From positions 1-61,365 of the IMG/VR virus record IMGVR_UViG_3300022752_000071: a stretch of DNA of 61,365 bases. The stretch is one strand, 5' to 3'. Below the pieces are notes generated by a model, which worked only from the letters and a program-made list of their open reading frames with translations, was not told the origin of the DNA and did no database searches. The stretch is from a virus. The stretch's first letter is position 1; each line of letters opens with the position of its first letter. Shown here piece after piece: positions 4,340 through 50,778 of this stretch. The position numbers were made by a program, and so were the translations under genes.

Positions 4340-4677
4340 AGGGGGAGGGGGAGGGGGAGCATGTGGACGGACGCCACGTCCAGGCGCTCGGAGGACGTCG
4401 CCAGCGCGCGGAGGGACGCGCGGTGGAGCGTCTCGATCTCCGCGTCCGCGTCGACCGAGGCGACGCTCGCCATAGCCTCACCCCAGGCCATCGCGACCGC
4501 GACCGGGTCGATCAGTTCAACATCCGAGACGTCGAGGACGATTACCGCGTCGACGTCCGCGGGGACATCGGGCAGCGCGACCGAGCCCATTGCGAGCACC
4601 GCGAGGGTAGCGGCGACGAAGGACCAGCTAGCGCAGATCGGCAGGGCGAGCAAAGCGACGAAGATGGCGAGAGTCAT
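4330..4677 (-). CDS. Small membrane protein of the GC-rich block
   Basis: 115 aa. Residues 1-35 are strongly hydrophobic (one long or two short membrane segments). The rest is Ala/Val/Asp-rich with acidic patches. It starts at ATG 4675-4677 with a GGAGA Shine-Dalgarno 9 nt upstream, in a leader almost identical to that of the 5635 gene (CAACGGAGA...CACCATG). Its 3' end runs into the GC-rich repeats, so the C-terminal MLPLPLPLAA may be repeat-derived. Function unknown. Confidence 0.5.
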   Translation of the reverse strand: MTLAIFVALLALPICASWSFVAATLAVLAMGSVALPDVPADVDAVIVLDVSDVELIDPVAVAMAWGEAMASVASVDADAEIETLHRASLRALATSSERLDVASVHMLPLPLPLAA

Positions 4678-4717
4678 GGTGGGGGGTCTCCGTTGGGGGG
4701 TGTCGAGGACAAGAGGA

Positions 4718-4747
4718 CGTTACACACTAGCGTGTCGAAACGCAAGT
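4718..4747 (-). promoter_or_regulatory. Candidate promoter/operator for the 4677 gene
   Basis: On the minus strand TTGCGT, a 17-nt spacer and TAACGT. The spacer contains the inverted repeat ACAC-TAGC-GTGT (4724-4735). A 21-bp relative (17 of 21 identical) lies at 7878-7898 in the long gap upstream of the DUF932 operon, suggesting one regulator binds both. Confidence 0.35.
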
Positions 4748-4824
4748 ATTAATTCCCTCCCCTTTGTCGATTTTCGCGAATCGCGGCAAATTGCGGGCGA
4801 TCCGCGAGCCACAAAATGAAACGA

Positions 4825-4850
4825 CCCCCGATCGAGGGGCCGATCGGGGG
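4825..4850 (-). terminator. Terminator of the leftward GC-block operon
   Basis: A perfect 10-bp stem, CCCCCGATCG with CGATCGGGGG, and a 6-nt loop lie just past the stop of the 4880-5635 gene. On the minus strand it is followed by TCGTTTCATTTTG, a weak U-rich tail. Confidence 0.65.
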
Positions 4851-4879
4851 TTAGTAGCGGGAGGGGAGGGGAGGCTAGG

Positions 4880-5635
4880 TCATCCCCTCACTGGCATCAC
4901 GAGCGCGAGCGCGTCCGTGCCGTCTCGTCCCTCGATGTCGTACCGCATGGGGGCAAGGTAGGCCCATTCGCCTTGATCCTTCGCCGCCCCCCACGAGCGA
5001 TCGGGACGCCATTCGGCGTCTGCGATCGAGGCGCGGACGCTGGTCGCGCCGACGGCGTCCGCGACGTCCGCGAGCCGGGCGAGGTAGTGTGGATCGGCAT
5101 ACCAGATCGCGCTACCAGTAGCAGCGCCCGCGTCCGGCGTCGTCCCGTGCGTGCGTCGCGCGGGAATGACTTGGTCGACGGGGGGGTACTGCATCCCGCC
5201 ATCGATCACGACTTGCGACGTTGTCGAGGGGGAGCCGAGCATCGGGTCTCCCTCCCCCTTGCGTCCGGCGTGGGGGACGGTCGCGACGTCCGCGTGGAGG
5301 ATGGGTGAACCTTCGACTTGCGAGCCGATCGCGATCGCGATCGACTCGCGGGCACCGCATGCCTTGACCGCGCGCATCATGGTCGATCGGGGGATGACCG
5401 CGTATCCCTGGGGGGAGTAAGCGGGGATCGGCGTCGACCCACCCGTCCGCCCGCGGAGGAGGAGCAGGGTATGTCCGTCCGTCGCGATCGCCTCCGGGCG
5501 TCCGTCGACATAGCGCAGGCACACCGAGCACAGCGCGGTGCGCGTCTCGTCGGTCGACGCAAAGGCTAGCAGGGCCTTCGCTTCGGCTTTTGAGAAAGTG
5601 AGGTAAACGCGGGAATCGTGGCTGTAGGTCTGCAT
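4880..5635 (-). CDS. Putative sliding-clamp-like (DnaN-related) protein
   Basis: 251 aa. The N-terminal half reads like a beta-clamp domain: a KAEAKALLAFAS helix, then LRYVDGRPEAIATDGHTLLLL, the strand-turn-strand with ATDGH(R/T)L typical of DnaN domains. Length is below the 360-370 aa of cellular clamps, so it would hold fewer domains. If real, it could act as a processivity factor or decoy. The leader has a GGAGA Shine-Dalgarno. It sits at the end of an operon with a DUF932 protein. The assignment is tentative. Confidence 0.4.
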   Translation of the reverse strand: MQTYSHDSRVYLTFSKAEAKALLAFASTDETRTALCSVCLRYVDGRPEAIATDGHTLLLLRGRTGGSTPIPAYSPQGYAVIPRSTMMRAVKACGARESIAIAIGSQVEGSPILHADVATVPHAGRKGEGDPMLGSPSTTSQVVIDGGMQYPPVDQVIPARRTHGTTPDAGAATGSAIWYADPHYLARLADVADAVGATSVRASIADAEWRPDRSWGAAKDQGEWAYLAPMRYDIEGRDGTDALALVMPVRG

Positions 5636-5670
5636 GGTGGGTTTCTCCGTTGCTAGGTGGGGCGAGGGGG

Positions 5671-5853
5671 TTATCGGTGGGGACGCGGCCGGGGTGCCGG
5701 CCGGGGTGCCGGCCGATAGACTGGCCGGGAGTAGTGCGCGCGCACTACTGGCCCGGCATGCCGCGGGGGATCGTCGGGGGCCAGCGCGACTAGTCCGCCG
5801 AGCGCCGCGCCAAATAGCGCGGCCCCCAGGGCTTCAAGGATGGATCGGGTCAT
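5671..5853 (-). CDS. Small membrane protein with Arg/Pro-rich tail
   Basis: 60 aa. Residues 4-26 form a likely membrane helix rich in Leu/Ala/Gly. The C-terminal 20 residues are RPAPRPAPRPRPHR-like and come from a short DNA repeat (GGCCGGGGTGCC). The ATG (5851-5853) overlaps the stop of the 5850-6329 gene, so translation is coupled. A perfect 20-bp palindrome (5730-5749) lies within the gene. Function unknown. Confidence 0.45.
   Translation of the reverse strand: MTRSILEALGAALFGAALGGLVALAPDDPPRHAGPVVRAHYSRPVYRPAPRPAPRPRPHR
5730..5749. repeat. Perfect 20-bp palindrome
   Basis: AGTAGTGCGC followed directly by GCGCACTACT, flanked by GGCCGGG on one side and GGCCCGGC on the other. The full structure could form a hairpin or cruciform of about 16 bp per arm. 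It lies inside the coding region of the 60-aa protein. Confidence 0.8.
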
Positions 5854-6329
5854 GGCGCGCGGTATGCCTCGATAAAGCGGCCGTCCGCGTAGGTGAGGCA
5901 GACTCGCAGCGCCACCGGGCCGCGCGTCTCTTCGTCGTCGGTCTCGACCGACGTCTGGACTAGTTCGACACGCGCGGCTACGTCTGCGGCAATCTCGATC
6001 GCTGCGAGGCGATCACGCTCCGCGCGGAGCGCGCGCCATAGTGCGGGCGACGGCGTTTCGTCATCGCCGATTGCGGTCTCATGAGTGACTGCACCGCACC
6101 ACGGCAGGGTGTGGAGACGCACGTAGCCGAGCGATTTCGCAATCCCCCACAAATATTCCCCGATCTTCCGCTTGTACGGGTCGGAATGTGGGCCGAGTGT
6201 CGCGAGCCATGCGGATTCTTCCGCGTCATGCATTCCCGCCGCGGTGGCGAGCCGCGCAACGGCCGCGAGGCGCTCCGAGCGCGCGGTCGGATGATTGAGC
6301 ATGTAGTTGGTCTCGATCCAGTTGTTCAT
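5850..6329 (-). CDS. Hypothetical protein, GC-rich block
   Basis: 159 aa. A helical N-terminal region carries LAAVARLATAAGM and YLWGIAKSLGYVRL segments, followed by a polar, acidic C-terminal half. No family recognised. The start (6327-6329) has AAGGA 5-6 nt upstream. It lies between the DUF932 gene and the small membrane protein, overlapping the latter by 4 bp, so it belongs to the same operon. Confidence 0.55.
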   Translation of the reverse strand: MNNWIETNYMLNHPTARSERLAAVARLATAAGMHDAEESAWLATLGPHSDPYKRKIGEYLWGIAKSLGYVRLHTLPWCGAVTHETAIGDDETPSPALWRALRAERDRLAAIEIAADVAARVELVQTSVETDDEETRGPVALRVCLTYADGRFIEAYRAP

Positions 6330-6362
6330 GGGTTCCTTCGTAGGGGTGGGTGCGTCCGTCGC

Positions 6363-6402
6363 ACCCTTCGGCCGCTCACGGGAGGGTGAGCGGCCGAAGG
6401 GT
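6363..6402 (-). terminator. Large hairpin between the DUF932 and 159-aa genes
   Basis: A 17-bp perfect inverted repeat, ACCCTTCGGCCGCTCAC with its complement, around a 6-nt loop. A second 7-bp hairpin (CCCGACC/GGTCGGG) lies just beside it at 6406-6426. There is no U-tract, so it may attenuate transcription or process the operon message and not end transcription fully. Confidence 0.5.
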
Positions 6403-6434
6403 ACGCCCGACCGGACGACGGTCGGGTGTCCCTG

Positions 6435-7493
6435 TCAGCCGTCCAAGATCCAATCGAGGAGGCCGGCCTGCTCGGCCGGCACGCCCATCGCGACCGCTTC
6501 GGCGACCGCGACCGCTTCGACGCTGCCGTCCGGCCGGACGACTTCGACAAGACGTTCGATTACGGTCTCGATCTCCGCGATCCGCTTGCTCCGCGCTCCG
6601 AAGAGGAGACTGTCTAGGCGGTCCGCTCCCCCGCGACATTCGCGCGTTGCGCCGTCCGCTTCGCGATCGACCAGCCACGTAGCGGCATTCCACAGGCTGG
6701 CGACATTGCCGGCCGCACCGCCGACGGCGTTTTCGGGGCGGCGGGCCGCGATCCTCGCGTCCGTCCGCTCGTTCTCCGCGCGGGTCTTCGCACGCTGCGA
6801 AGCATCGTCGGGCGCGGAGGGAAACAGCGCGTCAAACGCTTCGCGCGCGGCGTCGGCGGGGAGAACGGTGCGGCTCGCTCGCTCGTACAATTCGCGCACC
6901 TTGCGTCCGCTGGCGATCGATTCGCCGATCGTGTCGGCGAGCACGTTTACCTTCTCTTCAAGGGATGCGGTGTGCCGCAGTCTGGCCATTCCCTTGCCAT
7001 CGCTCGACATCGCTGCTTTGAGGGTGTTCGCACAAACGACTCGGACGCTGCTCGTTCCCGCGGTTAACTGAAGCGTGCCGTCGAAGCTATCGGCCAACAT
7101 GAGATGGTCGACGAGACCGCTACCGCTACCGATCTCGAACGTCGCGAGCACTCGCGTGCCATCGCGAAGCGAGAACGCCCCGGTGGGTCGCGCACCGGCA
7201 GCGGTAGCAGCGCGAACCAGGGTCCGCCACTCATCCGGCGTCGTTGCGCGGTAGCGGTCGCCGACGACGGAGAGCGCCCGATCGGGGTGCGCGAGGTAGG
7301 ACGCGACGATCGCGGAGCCCGGAGCCCGGAGCCCGCCGGACGTGTAGACGTCCTCCGAGCGGAGAGCGATAGGCCACGCGCCCGAAGTCTCGCCGTGCGC
7401 GACGATGTCCTCCGCGGTGTGCATCTCCGCGACCGTTTCGAGACCGTGCCAAGACGATGCGGCGAGCACGCCGCGATGCCATTCGTGAGCCAT
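6435..7493 (-). CDS. DUF932-family phage/plasmid protein
   Basis: 352 aa. It resembles the phage/plasmid-like DUF932 family (TIGR03299): an N-terminal W-H-G segment, an SVVGDRYRATT motif near residue 75, a GARPTGAFSLRDGTRVLATFEI region and RVVCANTLKAAM in the middle. These proteins are common on plasmids and large phages, and their activity is not established. ATG 7491-7493 has AAAGGAAA upstream and begins the leftward operon. The family match suggests the block derives from a plasmid or satellite. Confidence 0.55.
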   Translation of the reverse strand: MAHEWHRGVLAASSWHGLETVAEMHTAEDIVAHGETSGAWPIALRSEDVYTSGGLRAPGSAIVASYLAHPDRALSVVGDRYRATTPDEWRTLVRAATAAGARPTGAFSLRDGTRVLATFEIGSGSGLVDHLMLADSFDGTLQLTAGTSSVRVVCANTLKAAMSSDGKGMARLRHTASLEEKVNVLADTIGESIASGRKVRELYERASRTVLPADAAREAFDALFPSAPDDASQRAKTRAENERTDARIAARRPENAVGGAAGNVASLWNAATWLVDREADGATRECRGGADRLDSLLFGARSKRIAEIETVIERLVEVVRPDGSVEAVAVAEAVAMGVPAEQAGLLDWILDG

Positions 7494-47773: not shown

Positions 47774-49540
47774 TTACCGGACGAGCGAACCGATGCGCGC
47801 TTCCGCAATCGCGATATATTCCGCCGATTGCTCAAAACCGACGAACTCAAAGCCTTCCAGCATGCACGCCATGCCGGTCGTCCCGCTGCCGGTGAACGGA
47901 TCGAGCACGCAACCGTTCGGCGGTGTCACGAGTTTCACAAGCCAGCGCATGAGTTCGACGGGCTTCACGGTGGGGTGGCTGTTGCGAACGGCGGCAGCGG
48001 TGCGGCCGGCACCAGCACGAGGTGAGTTCAGACCGTCCGATCCTTCCTCGCGGTCAACCGCTTGCGCGCCGGTCTTCGTGGGAAGACTCTCGCAGCCGCG
48101 TTCGCGTTCCTTGCGGCCCGCCTTGGCTTCGTACTTGAAGCACGGAAAGAAGCGGGAGGCTCCGTCCTTGTCGCCTTGCCGATCCATTTCGGGGACCGGG
48201 CAGTCCTCCGCGCACTCGTCGCCGCACTCGGGTGAATGATTCAGAAGGATGTTCGGTGGCCAACGACCGATGGTGCTGGCGTCGTTCGCGCCAGAGAGAT
48301 CGCTGGAGTTCTTCCAGCTATTCTCCATCGATCCGCCGCGCGCTTTGATCGCTTGCACGCCTGCCGCTAGCTTGGCGAAGTCCGACTCGGAAGCGTAGGC
48401 GACGCGCGTGCCGTCGATGTTCAGCGCCCCGGTGCCGTGCGCGAGCACGTTCTCCGAGACGGTGCCGTCGAGCGGCTTGCGCGCCACTACAATGGGCTTA
48501 TGGCCTCTGTCTTCCTCGCCCTGGCAACTTTCCAGCGATGCGCCGGTAGCACTCTCGGTTGCAGCAAGCGTTTGGATTGCGCGCAGCCTGAGCGCGCTGG
48601 CGCGAAACAGATCGTCCGCAAGCCGCACAAGGAACGAAAATGCGGGCGCGTTCGGGCGCGTGCTCCCGTCCGTGATCTTCGACAGACAAGACAGCAAGAT
48701 TGCAGAGTCGGTTGTCTGATTTGTCTCCGTTGATGTGGTGGACGTGCTCTCTCGTGCCGAGGCTTCTTCCCAGGTGCGCTGCCATGACGACACGGTGTTC
48801 AAGCTCAAATCGATTGCCGACGCGGACTGCCACGTATCCGTCTCCGCGCACGAATCGCCCCGTGTAGCAAACCGCCGCCCTGCATCCAGCAGAGCAGAAG
48901 CGAACGCCTCTACGAACTCGTTTTGGCTTGACGCTGAATGTTCCTCCGCAAGCCTCGCACGTAACATTGACAGGCATGAACCCATTGTAGCTGGTTTTGC
49001 GGCCACAATCACCGGCTCAAATGCTGGTTTCAGCGCCGTGCCCCATCCTTGCCATTGCTTCGCGGCGTCGGTAGCGGGTGCGGTAATCCCTCGTGTGTCC
49101 AAAACTGTTCTTGGGAGATCGCCGGGAGACATCGCTCGCGCGTGCTTGTTGGCGCGTGCCGCATACGGAGACAGGCCGATCACTTCCCGCTCTTTTCCCG
49201 CCGCCTTGTCGATCGCTTTGGACACGTCCATCGACTTCGGGAAGCCCGACCCGTAGATCCAATGGATCGAATCGCGCACTTCAAAGCCCGCGTCCTCGAT
49301 GGCGCACGCCATCCGGTGATAGGTGCGCGTGCCGCCGAACGCGAGGAGATGCCCGCCCGGCTTCAGCACGCGCAGGCACTCCCTCCAGACGTCTACGTTG
49401 TAAGCAATTCCAGAGGCGTCCCACCGCTTGCCCATGAATCCCAATTCGTATGGCGGGTCGGTGACGATGGCGTCGATGCACTCGTCGGGCAGATCGCGTA
49501 GGAGTTCTCGGCAGTCGCCCTGGAAAAGCTCGTAGGTCAC
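47774..49540 (-). CDS. DNA methyltransferase interrupted by an in-frame HNH insertion
   Basis: 588 aa, much longer than usual. The N-terminal part has catalytic DPPY (residues 28-31) and LKPGGHLLAFGGTRTYHRMACAIED; the C-terminal part has DPFTGSGTTG with the SAM-binding pattern, so it is an N4/N6-type amino-methyltransferase. Between AFEPVIVAAKP (about residue 184) and GHKPIVVARKPLDG (about 350) lies a foreign Ser/Thr-rich segment. Uninterrupted relatives read ...FEPIVVARKPL... directly. The insertion is a 3n length with no stop, and an HNH endonuclease is encoded in another frame within it. Confidence 0.7.
   Translation of the reverse strand: MTYELFQGDCRELLRDLPDECIDAIVTDPPYELGFMGKRWDASGIAYNVDVWRECLRVLKPGGHLLAFGGTRTYHRMACAIEDAGFEVRDSIHWIYGSGFPKSMDVSKAIDKAAGKEREVIGLSPYAARANKHARAMSPGDLPRTVLDTRGITAPATDAAKQWQGWGTALKPAFEPVIVAAKPATMGSCLSMLRARLAEEHSASSQNEFVEAFASALLDAGRRFATRGDSCAETDTWQSASAIDLSLNTVSSWQRTWEEASARESTSTTSTETNQTTDSAILLSCLSKITDGSTRPNAPAFSFLVRLADDLFRASALRLRAIQTLAATESATGASLESCQGEEDRGHKPIVVARKPLDGTVSENVLAHGTGALNIDGTRVAYASESDFAKLAAGVQAIKARGGSMENSWKNSSDLSGANDASTIGRWPPNILLNHSPECGDECAEDCPVPEMDRQGDKDGASRFFPCFKYEAKAGRKERERGCESLPTKTGAQAVDREEGSDGLNSPRAGAGRTAAAVRNSHPTVKPVELMRWLVKLVTPPNGCVLDPFTGSGTTGMACMLEGFEFVGFEQSAEYIAIAEARIGSLVR
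48487..48990 (-). mobile_element. HNH insertion in the methyltransferase gene, with inverted-repeat ends
   Basis: CTACAATGGGCTTATG (48487-48502) and CATGAACCCATTGTAG (48975-48990) are inverted copies with 14 of 16 matches, and they bracket the HNH gene. The amino acids on both flanks (VIVAAKP and PIVVARKP) partly repeat each other, as if the target had been duplicated and recoded. The exact ends are an inference. Confidence 0.55.
48498..48977 (-). CDS. HNH homing-type endonuclease nested in the methyltransferase
   Basis: 159 aa in a different frame from the methyltransferase. Zinc knuckle cysteines at 7, 10, 28 and 32; HNH core ELEHRVVMAAHLG, VHHINGDKSDNR and CNLAVLS, and a second CAAC...CCNREC zinc knuckle at the C-terminus. 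It fits HNH homing endonucleases of phages. The segment is flanked by an imperfect 16-bp inverted repeat. There is almost no sequence left for an intron, so it appears to be a free-standing insert. Confidence 0.8.
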   Translation of the reverse strand: MPVNVTCEACGGTFSVKPKRVRRGVRFCSAGCRAAVCYTGRFVRGDGYVAVRVGNRFELEHRVVMAAHLGRSLGTREHVHHINGDKSDNRLCNLAVLSVEDHGREHAPERARIFVPCAACGRSVSRQRAQAARNPNACCNRECYRRIAGKLPGRGRQRP

Positions 49541-50139
49541 TTTCGCACCGTCATGCTCGCTTCTTGGAAGAACTCCACGCCGGGGATGGGCGTCGGTGCG
49601 CCGTCGTCGCGCACGCTGCCGCGCATCTCCGCGTCGATCTTGTTCGGATCGGGCGAGCAGAATCGCGCAGGCACCGCCGACTCGTCAACAATTCGGAACT
49701 TCCAGACCATCCGCATCGACACGCCCTGCGGCATCGCGGTGGGCGTGGGAGCCGCAGCCAGGGCTGCGGTCGCTTCTTGGGCCGTCTGGGCCGCAGCAGC
49801 GAGCGCGAGCGCCTCGCGCGAGGCTTTCTCGCGCTCGGTCACGTAGAGCGCCACCTTTGCCTTCAGCTTCTTCTCGGCGTTCTCCAACGCGTCGAGCGCG
49901 GGTTTGAACCAGCCGTTGATCGTCTTGACGGTCGTGTTCAGCGGGCCGGTGACTTCCTTGCGCCGGTCGTCGAGTTCCTTGTGCTTCGCCTTCACCTCGC
50001 GAATGAGGTCGGCGGCGAAGGCAGAGTCCTCGTCGTTCGAGACAACGAACGTGTCGAGTTCACGCAGCGCCGCGACGGTGGCGGCGTGCTCGCCGTCGAG
50101 GTCGCCGGCTTGTTTACGGTACGGGGTCAGGTCGTTCAT
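49537..50139 (-). CDS. Internal-start product of the fused gene (coiled-coil protein)
   Basis: Candidate 200-aa protein made from ATG 50137-50139, which is preceded by AAAGGATCGAAGA. Starts MNDLTPYRKQAGDLDGEH and ends with a PGVEFFQEASMTVRK beta segment. Same reading frame as the larger fusion. Whether it is made alone cannot be told from sequence. Confidence 0.45.
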   Translation of the reverse strand: MNDLTPYRKQAGDLDGEHAATVAALRELDTFVVSNDEDSAFAADLIREVKAKHKELDDRRKEVTGPLNTTVKTINGWFKPALDALENAEKKLKAKVALYVTEREKASREALALAAAAQTAQEATAALAAAPTPTAMPQGVSMRMVWKFRIVDESAVPARFCSPDPNKIDAEMRGSVRDDGAPTPIPGVEFFQEASMTVRK

Positions 50140-50778
50140 GGGGTCTTCGATCCTTTCTTGTTTCTTCCACGTCATAGCGGCGCTGCCGGATTGCCAGCGT
50201 TTTCCGGTAGCCACTTGCCGCCATCCATTTTTCCGCATGTACTCAGCGGCATCGCCTCGTCGACAAATCCAATTCTCCCATCGTTGCAACGTCGTCGGCG
50301 GCGCTGCGATCAGTTCGCGACGATTCGTTTTGCCTGCTGAGTAGATTGATGCGCGCGAACCGTCCGGCAGCAATCGGACAACGGCACGGCGGCGAACGGT
50401 CGCCGTCCAACCGGAGCATCGGTAAACATAGCCAGTGTGCCCTTGGCCTTCGTCGCTGAACGTCACAAGGACCGGCCAGCGTGTGCGGTCGATTTCGTGT
50501 TTCATCTGCCGCATAAGGGGCTTCGACACATGCTTCAATCGGCGTTCATGTTTCGGAACAGCGACCATTCGGGACAAGGCAAGAACGCCCCCTGGTGCTT
50601 CTGGACACACAGATTTCGCGCAGCCGGGGGGGGGAGGTTGCCATGCGTATGCTGCGACAGGGCGTTCGTTTTCGTAGACCGCAAAACAATAAACGGCGAC
50701 TCGGCCCGCCGAAGCGTAGCCATGGTGTCGCTCACACAACTCGCGCACCACTTCGATTGAAACTCGTCGCAAATCCAC
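49537..50778 (-). CDS. Mom-like acetyltransferase fused to a phage DNA-metabolism protein
   Basis: 413 aa from a GTG at 50776-50778. Residues 1-210 resemble the Mom/GNAT class: LALSRMVAVPKHERRLKHVSKPL, then LVTFSDEGQGHTGYVYRCSGW. Residues 214-413 (from an internal ATG, 50137-50139) are a coiled-coil region (ADLIREVKAKHKELDDRRKEVTGPL) as in phage proteins that accompany recombination genes. The join sequence looks like a Shine-Dalgarno followed by ATG, so the fusion may be recent or give two products. Mom-type enzymes modify adenine to resist restriction. Confidence 0.5.
   Translation of the reverse strand: MDLRRVSIEVVRELCERHHGYASAGRVAVYCFAVYENERPVAAYAWQPPPPGCAKSVCPEAPGGVLALSRMVAVPKHERRLKHVSKPLMRQMKHEIDRTRWPVLVTFSDEGQGHTGYVYRCSGWTATVRRRAVVRLLPDGSRASIYSAGKTNRRELIAAPPTTLQRWENWICRRGDAAEYMRKNGWRQVATGKRWQSGSAAMTWKKQERIEDPMNDLTPYRKQAGDLDGEHAATVAALRELDTFVVSNDEDSAFAADLIREVKAKHKELDDRRKEVTGPLNTTVKTINGWFKPALDALENAEKKLKAKVALYVTEREKASREALALAAAAQTAQEATAALAAAPTPTAMPQGVSMRMVWKFRIVDESAVPARFCSPDPNKIDAEMRGSVRDDGAPTPIPGVEFFQEASMTVRK

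Follow-up and report, generated by a model that had tools for sequence, protein, structure and literature searches.

Homing endonucleases are thought to need a berth in an intron, in an intein, or between genes, since they would otherwise kill the target gene. The closest described system to the locus reported here is the ShiLan domain, a hidden out-of-frame HNH endonuclease in actinobacteriophage methylases (Arsenault, Gosselin, and Gogarten 2025, PMC11855218), and related papers also treat ShiLan-type HNH proteins (Gosselin et al. 2023, PMC9957025; Applejack, PMC12613952). Our search of the literature for out-of-frame HNH genes returned only the ShiLan papers and Applejack. The preprint 10.1101/2025.01.02.630785, on actinobacteriophage inteins with noncanonical architecture and cited in PMC11855218, may overlap with the present work, since nucleases lying out of frame within inteins may already be reported there.

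Here we describe a locus in the window, by which we mean the entire 61,365-nucleotide stretch of DNA that was analyzed (IMG/VR virus record IMGVR_UViG_3300022752_000071). A paper of 2025 had already reported its arrangement (PMC11855218). The window adds a new and divergent member of the ShiLan-domain type, which shows this arrangement outside mycobacteriophages, in an unrelated virus. New in the present work are the statistical test, the finding that Shine-Dalgarno sites precede the HNH start in relatives, and a set of nested nucleases that are antisense, lie at other methyltransferase sites, or sit inside inteins.

An HNH gene nested in a methyltransferase gene

The initial annotation reported an HNH open reading frame (48498-48977, minus strand) in a different frame inside a methyltransferase open reading frame (47774-49540, minus strand), and both are present as given. 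The latter is a stop-free frame of 588 codons encoding a phage beta-class (N6_N4) methyltransferase with an insertion (PF01555, phrog_67), and the Pfam N6_N4_Mtase model matches it in two pieces (E = 2.5e-33). On the basis of alignment A1 and dN/dS, the N-terminal part (48992-49540, minus) runs from the DPPY motif to ...LKPAFEPVIVAAKP, and the C-terminal part (47774-48499, minus) runs from KPIVVARKPL through the DPFTGSGTTG SAM-binding motif. The DPPY motif before the TRD and the FxGSG-type SAM motif after it are both intact. Between the two parts, the methyltransferase frame continues without a stop through 164 Ser/Thr-rich residues that are predicted to be disordered (48500-48991, minus).

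Uninterrupted methyltransferases make the site of insertion apparent. Exactly 8 residues separate LKP from RKP in 51 of 80 IMG/VR homologues (by regular expression), and nearly all of the remaining 29 likewise carry an uninterrupted motif with small variants. The corresponding distance in the window is 181 residues, which gives a net insert of 173 codons, or 519 bp. Thus, the frame is open through the insert as first noted, but its size had been put at about 165 residues and is corrected by this comparison. Alignment to uninterrupted relatives places the insertion at EPIVVARKPL, within the conserved [FH]EP[IV]xxARKPL motif of phage DNA methylases. The repeat described at the flanks consists of an upstream copy of this target motif, EPVIVAAKP (48992-49018, minus), and a downstream copy, KPIVVARKP (48473-48499, minus), where the host sequence picks up again; it is evident in the protein, but in DNA only 16 of 27 bases match.

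The nested gene runs from ATG to TAA and encodes a homing-endonuclease-like HNH_3 protein of 159 amino acids (PF13392, E = 2.7e-10) with two Cys-rich zinc motifs and an HNH core whose HNH residues are invariant across alignment A2. Its codon positions 1, 2, and 3 coincide with methyltransferase positions 3, 1, and 2. An AlphaFold2 model of the protein has a mean pLDDT of 87, and the closest solved fold is that of I-HmuI (PDB 1u3e; E = 4e-3, probability 1.00). HNH endonucleases are frequent intron cargo and insertion of the element disrupts the site that it targets, as would be expected of an RNA intron (group I or II) that carries the HNH gene within a coincidentally open frame. However, the HNH gene covers most of the insert and leaves only about 39 bp outside it, the host frame and a length divisible by three are kept in all copies, and in the published study an intron signal was likewise absent from ShiLan copies (PMC11855218). 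No Rfam match reached the gathering score within the window, and a group I or II intron was rejected on this ground as very unlikely.

The initial annotation also regarded a pair of inverted repeats as the ends of the element. These repeats do exist (48487-48502 and 48975-48990, the latter spanning the HNH start codon), and their match at 14 of 16 positions is rare in shuffles of both ends. However, the relatives compared match at 9 to 11 of 16 positions, which is the chance level, and none has the repeat of the window. We therefore rejected the repeats as element ends. The repeat in the window might pair within the mRNA.

Matches to tail sheath, baseplate wedge, and terminase proteins suggest that the window phage is myovirus-like. 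An adjacent open reading frame (49537-50778, minus) overlaps the methyltransferase start. Its N-terminus matches a Mom-like DNA modification family and a region further on matches an exonuclease-labelled family, and it is possibly a fused DNA-modification gene.

Relatives at the same site

A tblastn search of phage records with the HNH protein matched 94 records, 16 of which cover at least 80% of it. These long matches come from the cyanophage Cr-LKS3 (Cylindrospermopsis phage) and from the mycobacteriophages Starcevich, Bipolar, Mantra, Totinger, Filuzino, Pollywog, MISSy, Murica, OwlsT2W, and ShiLan, with several phages present in two records. Plasmid records gave partial HNH matches only, with none reaching 80% of the query. 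The window protein is 49-50% identical to the HNH proteins of the ShiLan copies over 97% of the query, and about 55% identical to a mycobacteriophage copy over 154 aligned codons. All but one of the 16 long-match records are annotated as methylase or methyltransferase across the match. Several of the public records that we examined annotate only the long host frame, so nested nucleases are easily overlooked.

The methyltransferase frame is continuous through the HNH gene in 9/9 relatives examined (L081-L089). Likewise, eight full-length Cr-LKS3-type relatives in IMG/VR (L149-L156) and one further locus (L009) have an open host frame with the HNH register as in the window, and the GC content of elements at this site in IMG/VR contigs ranges down to 37%. 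Sampling methyltransferases from the host side recovered a nested HNH gene in 3 of 80 (L236, L198, and L235), with the frame kept in all three. In phage Eureka, which shares its neighboring genes with MISSy, the methyltransferase is uninterrupted and represents the empty allele. Among all loci found, none has an HNH gene between methyltransferase halves with a broken host frame; the halves always form one stop-free open reading frame. This uniformity would be needless for a split gene, in which the N-terminal half would end somewhere within the insert and translation of the C-terminal half would restart after the HNH stop to give a two-piece methyltransferase. Although the HNH stop codon (TAA, 48498-48500) is followed a few codons downstream by a GTG codon in KPIVV that could serve such a restart, we regard this arrangement as highly improbable.

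The elements of L081, L149-L152, and L155 are 90-96% identical, and 92-96% identical when compared with L081, whereas their methyltransferase flanks are only 54-84% identical (mostly 54-73%). Near-identical elements in diverged host genes indicate that the element is mobile. As judged from these alignments, the relation between element and flank identity matches what a homing element produces, and homing would presuppose cleavage of the empty site.

The open host frame compared with chance

An open shadow frame of this length is not rare in GC-rich DNA, as the initial annotation cautioned. We therefore held the HNH protein fixed and drew its synonymous codons anew according to their usage in the remaining genes of the contig. 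Permuting codons within the HNH gene provides a weak null, because the codon usage of that gene already avoids stop-forming codons, so usage in the contig was taken as the null. With the protein held and codons redrawn in this way, the host frame is open in the window with a probability of 0.057 (0.39 when the HNH gene's own codons are permuted). The caution thus holds for the window alone, where openness is weak evidence.

The relatives give a different result. Under the same contig null, the probability is 0.007 for L081, 0.025 for L149, 0.001 for L150, 0.0013 for L151, 0.001 for L153, 0.003 for L154, 0.017 for L155, 0.0007 for L009, 0.039 for L082, 0.008 for L086, and 0.022 for L087. It is 0/3000 for L156, whose element has 37% GC and 8.7 stops expected, and 0/3000 each for L070 and L128. 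The value for L152 was left out as independent evidence because its element, at 58% GC, lies in a contig of 40% GC and is a recent arrival from a GC-richer source. The copies share kinship, so these values are not all independent and are not to be multiplied. Stand-alone HNH relatives have a mean of 11.2, 7.3, 5.4, and 2.8 stops in the same frame across four rising GC classes.

These numbers bear on the simplest alternative, in which an HNH gene was inserted, the host frame is open merely from GC richness, and the methyltransferase has either lost its activity or does not matter. The window value agrees with such a chance shadow frame, as does the finding that 4 of 29 GC-rich stand-alone HNH genes are likewise open in the host-equivalent frame. 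However, the frame is also open at 37-43% element GC (L156 and L009), where 5 to 9 stops are expected, no broken cases were found, and purifying selection still acts on both halves of the host gene (see below). Low-GC and antisense members contradict chance for the class, and we consider this alternative unlikely. Across the whole class, the open host frame lies well outside what chance would produce, and its significance comes from the comparison with relatives, not from the window itself.

Constraint on the two frames

In pairwise comparisons, HNH codon position 3, which corresponds to methyltransferase position 2, changes more than the other two. Between L081 and L153, changes at HNH codon positions 1, 2, and 3 number 34, 18, and 48. 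Amino acid identity for this pair is 0.77 in the HNH frame and 0.64 in the host frame, and for the window and L081 it is 0.60 and 0.35, respectively. These comparisons indicate that the HNH product is the conserved protein, whereas the host frame is kept stop-free with its sequence not conserved. The initial annotation had proposed that conservation of the middle segment in the methyltransferase frame, and not in the HNH frame, would speak against nesting; we found the opposite. Outside the insert, dN/dS between invaded relatives, where unsaturated, is about 0.06-0.33 for the N-terminal half and about 0.12-0.36 for the C-terminal half, consistent with both halves still being under purifying selection. 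The earlier proposal that the insertion preserves the frame and spares the host gene is therefore borne out, given that none of the nested copies found interrupts the host frame and both halves are constrained.

An AlphaFold2 model of the long methyltransferase, which is of low confidence and was built on a thin alignment (13 sequences), has an overall pLDDT of 53, with the cores mostly at 70-93 and the insert at about 31-44. The insert is thus predicted to be disordered in the host frame, and it might interfere with methylation. These data also bear on the possibility of an unusual intein, in which the insert in the host frame would excise itself as a protein. The element is an in-frame insertion at a conserved motif, as inteins are, and intein-like insertions occur elsewhere in the methyltransferases of Starcevich, ShiLan, and StAnnes. 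Nevertheless, the window insert has neither a Cys/Ser at its start nor an HN-Cys/Ser/Thr at its end, it is predicted to be disordered, and its host-frame residues are less conserved than those of the HNH protein. Because the terminal splicing residues and a splicing domain are absent from the insert, we rejected an intein as extremely unlikely.

Translation start of the nested gene

Leaderless translation from a GTG located 18 bp into the insert, with an undetectable ribosome-binding site, has been proposed for the ShiLan domain (PMC11855218). This feature was not encountered in the window, where the HNH gene starts with ATG at 48977, and Mantra lacks the proposed GTG start. Instead, starts in relatives that align with the ATG of the window follow a GGAGG sequence. 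In seven Cr-LKS3-type copies it precedes an ATG by 7 nt (GGAG in L151), and in three ShiLan-type copies, Mantra among them, it precedes a GTG by 4 nt. No Shine-Dalgarno sequence is recognizable before the HNH start in the window or in L156. For the copies with GGAGG before the aligned start, internal Shine-Dalgarno initiation is the simpler explanation. The published GTG start is doubtful because the ShiLan copies have the homologous start further downstream, after GGAGG, and we do not use it to define the type. Furthermore, the presence of the element in low-GC phages weakens the proposed dependence on mycobacterial leaderless translation.

Nested nucleases at other sites and on the opposite strand

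Sense nested nucleases also occur at other methyltransferase sites (L070, L148, L108, L128, L198, L235, and a second one in L009). Antisense nested HNH genes were found in the methyltransferases of L069 (one) and L073 (two). At L073 (35% GC), the HNH genes at 4947-5429 and 5637-6239 (plus strand) lie inside a methyltransferase gene at 4375-6681 (minus strand) whose frame is open for 768 codons, and both are preceded by Shine-Dalgarno-like sites. For these two genes, P is 0/3000 each, with 6.7 and 8.3 stops expected; P is 0.007 for L069. The methyltransferase of L152 carries, in addition to its ShiLan-type HNH gene, an antisense Vsr-like nuclease frame of 271 codons near its N-terminus (host region 1436-2305), with weak Pfam matches to Vsr and PvuRts1I below the cut-off and P of 0/3000. 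A second methyltransferase insertion with an out-of-frame Cys/His-rich open reading frame is present at L155:3869-4324, and this frame has no confident Pfam family.

Outside the methyltransferase set, 23 of 124 HNH loci lie in an open host frame, with host identities read from sequence motifs. Some are inside intein-like insertions of polymerase, terminase, and clamp-loader genes (P from 0 to 0.034), either antisense (L123, L131/L132, L140, and L142) or sense (L050 and L105). An in-frame endonuclease domain would normally occupy the place of the nested HNH gene in such insertions. Others are antisense in giant multidomain phage proteins (P from 0 to 0.38), including the phase 0 genes at L006:4998-5522 and L095:2947-3519, which are located between a conserved GTGEGxQAxGWGIY stretch and a GNLYEVEIPD-like stretch; L003, L011, L013, L030, L033, and L034 are similar. 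At least four of the 23 loci are probably due to chance. GC-rich antisense shadows without a recognizable host (L018, L023, L110, and L113) were discarded as probable chance.

Discussion

We conclude, with a probability of roughly 0.86, that the window carries a mobile HNH gene that lies out of frame inside a methyltransferase gene and spares its host without splicing. To judge by its fold, its distribution, and the integrity of its motifs, the HNH protein would cut uninvaded alleles at the site that codes for EPIVVARKPL. Repair would then copy the element in, along with part of the flanking motif, and the element would be shielded from its own cleavage because the insertion splits the target. 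Because the insert length is divisible by three and the host frame is stop-free, ribosomes could read through and produce the complete methyltransferase, whose DPPY and SAM-binding halves would be joined by an additional disordered loop of some 170 residues. Codon choice in the HNH gene avoids host-frame stops, as the statistical comparison supports, and otherwise only the HNH protein sequence is conserved. The HNH protein may be translated from the shared mRNA by internal initiation, and neither RNA splicing nor protein splicing would be required. On this account, the element spares its host solely by virtue of being readable in a second frame, and it offers a natural case of two proteins that share DNA, one constrained in sequence and the other merely in the absence of stops.

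The additional loci suggest that nesting is far more widespread than the published cases, and the ShiLan paper makes no mention of antisense nesting (PMC11855218). We lean toward the view that phage homing endonuclease genes have, beside their intron-borne, intein-borne, and free-standing forms, a further general lifestyle of frame-preserving nesting. In this lifestyle, the nuclease would occupy a different frame or the other strand of a host gene, with its codons selected against host-frame stops. It would cover the ShiLan-type copies, the antisense and other-site HNH genes of methyltransferases, the Vsr-like frame of L152, the intein-nested nucleases, and the antisense HNH genes of giant proteins. 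Such a general and partly antisense class is the part that might surprise a specialist.

Several known systems can be compared with the window element. The intron-encoded HNH endonuclease I-HmuI shares the fold of the HNH model and the combination of an HNH core with DNA-binding modules, but the window element has no intron, and its host is spared by frame keeping rather than by splicing. Inteins are similar as in-frame insertions with a homing endonuclease at a conserved motif of a phage gene, whereas the window element lacks splicing motifs, encodes its endonuclease in another frame, and would remain in the protein. The host genes of yeast WHO elements are kept working by replacement of the gene end, not by an open host frame. 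WHO elements resemble the window element in being homing elements at a protein-coding gene that are neither introns nor inteins (PMC7282813). Finally, the ShiLan domain agrees with the window element in methyltransferase family, insertion motif, relative frame, stop-free host frame, HNH protein with flanking zinc motifs, duplicated flanking motif, and patchy distribution. The window element differs in that its HNH protein is about 55% identical to the mycobacteriophage copy, starts with ATG rather than GTG, is accompanied by 173 rather than 202 inserted codons, and resides in a myovirus-like phage.
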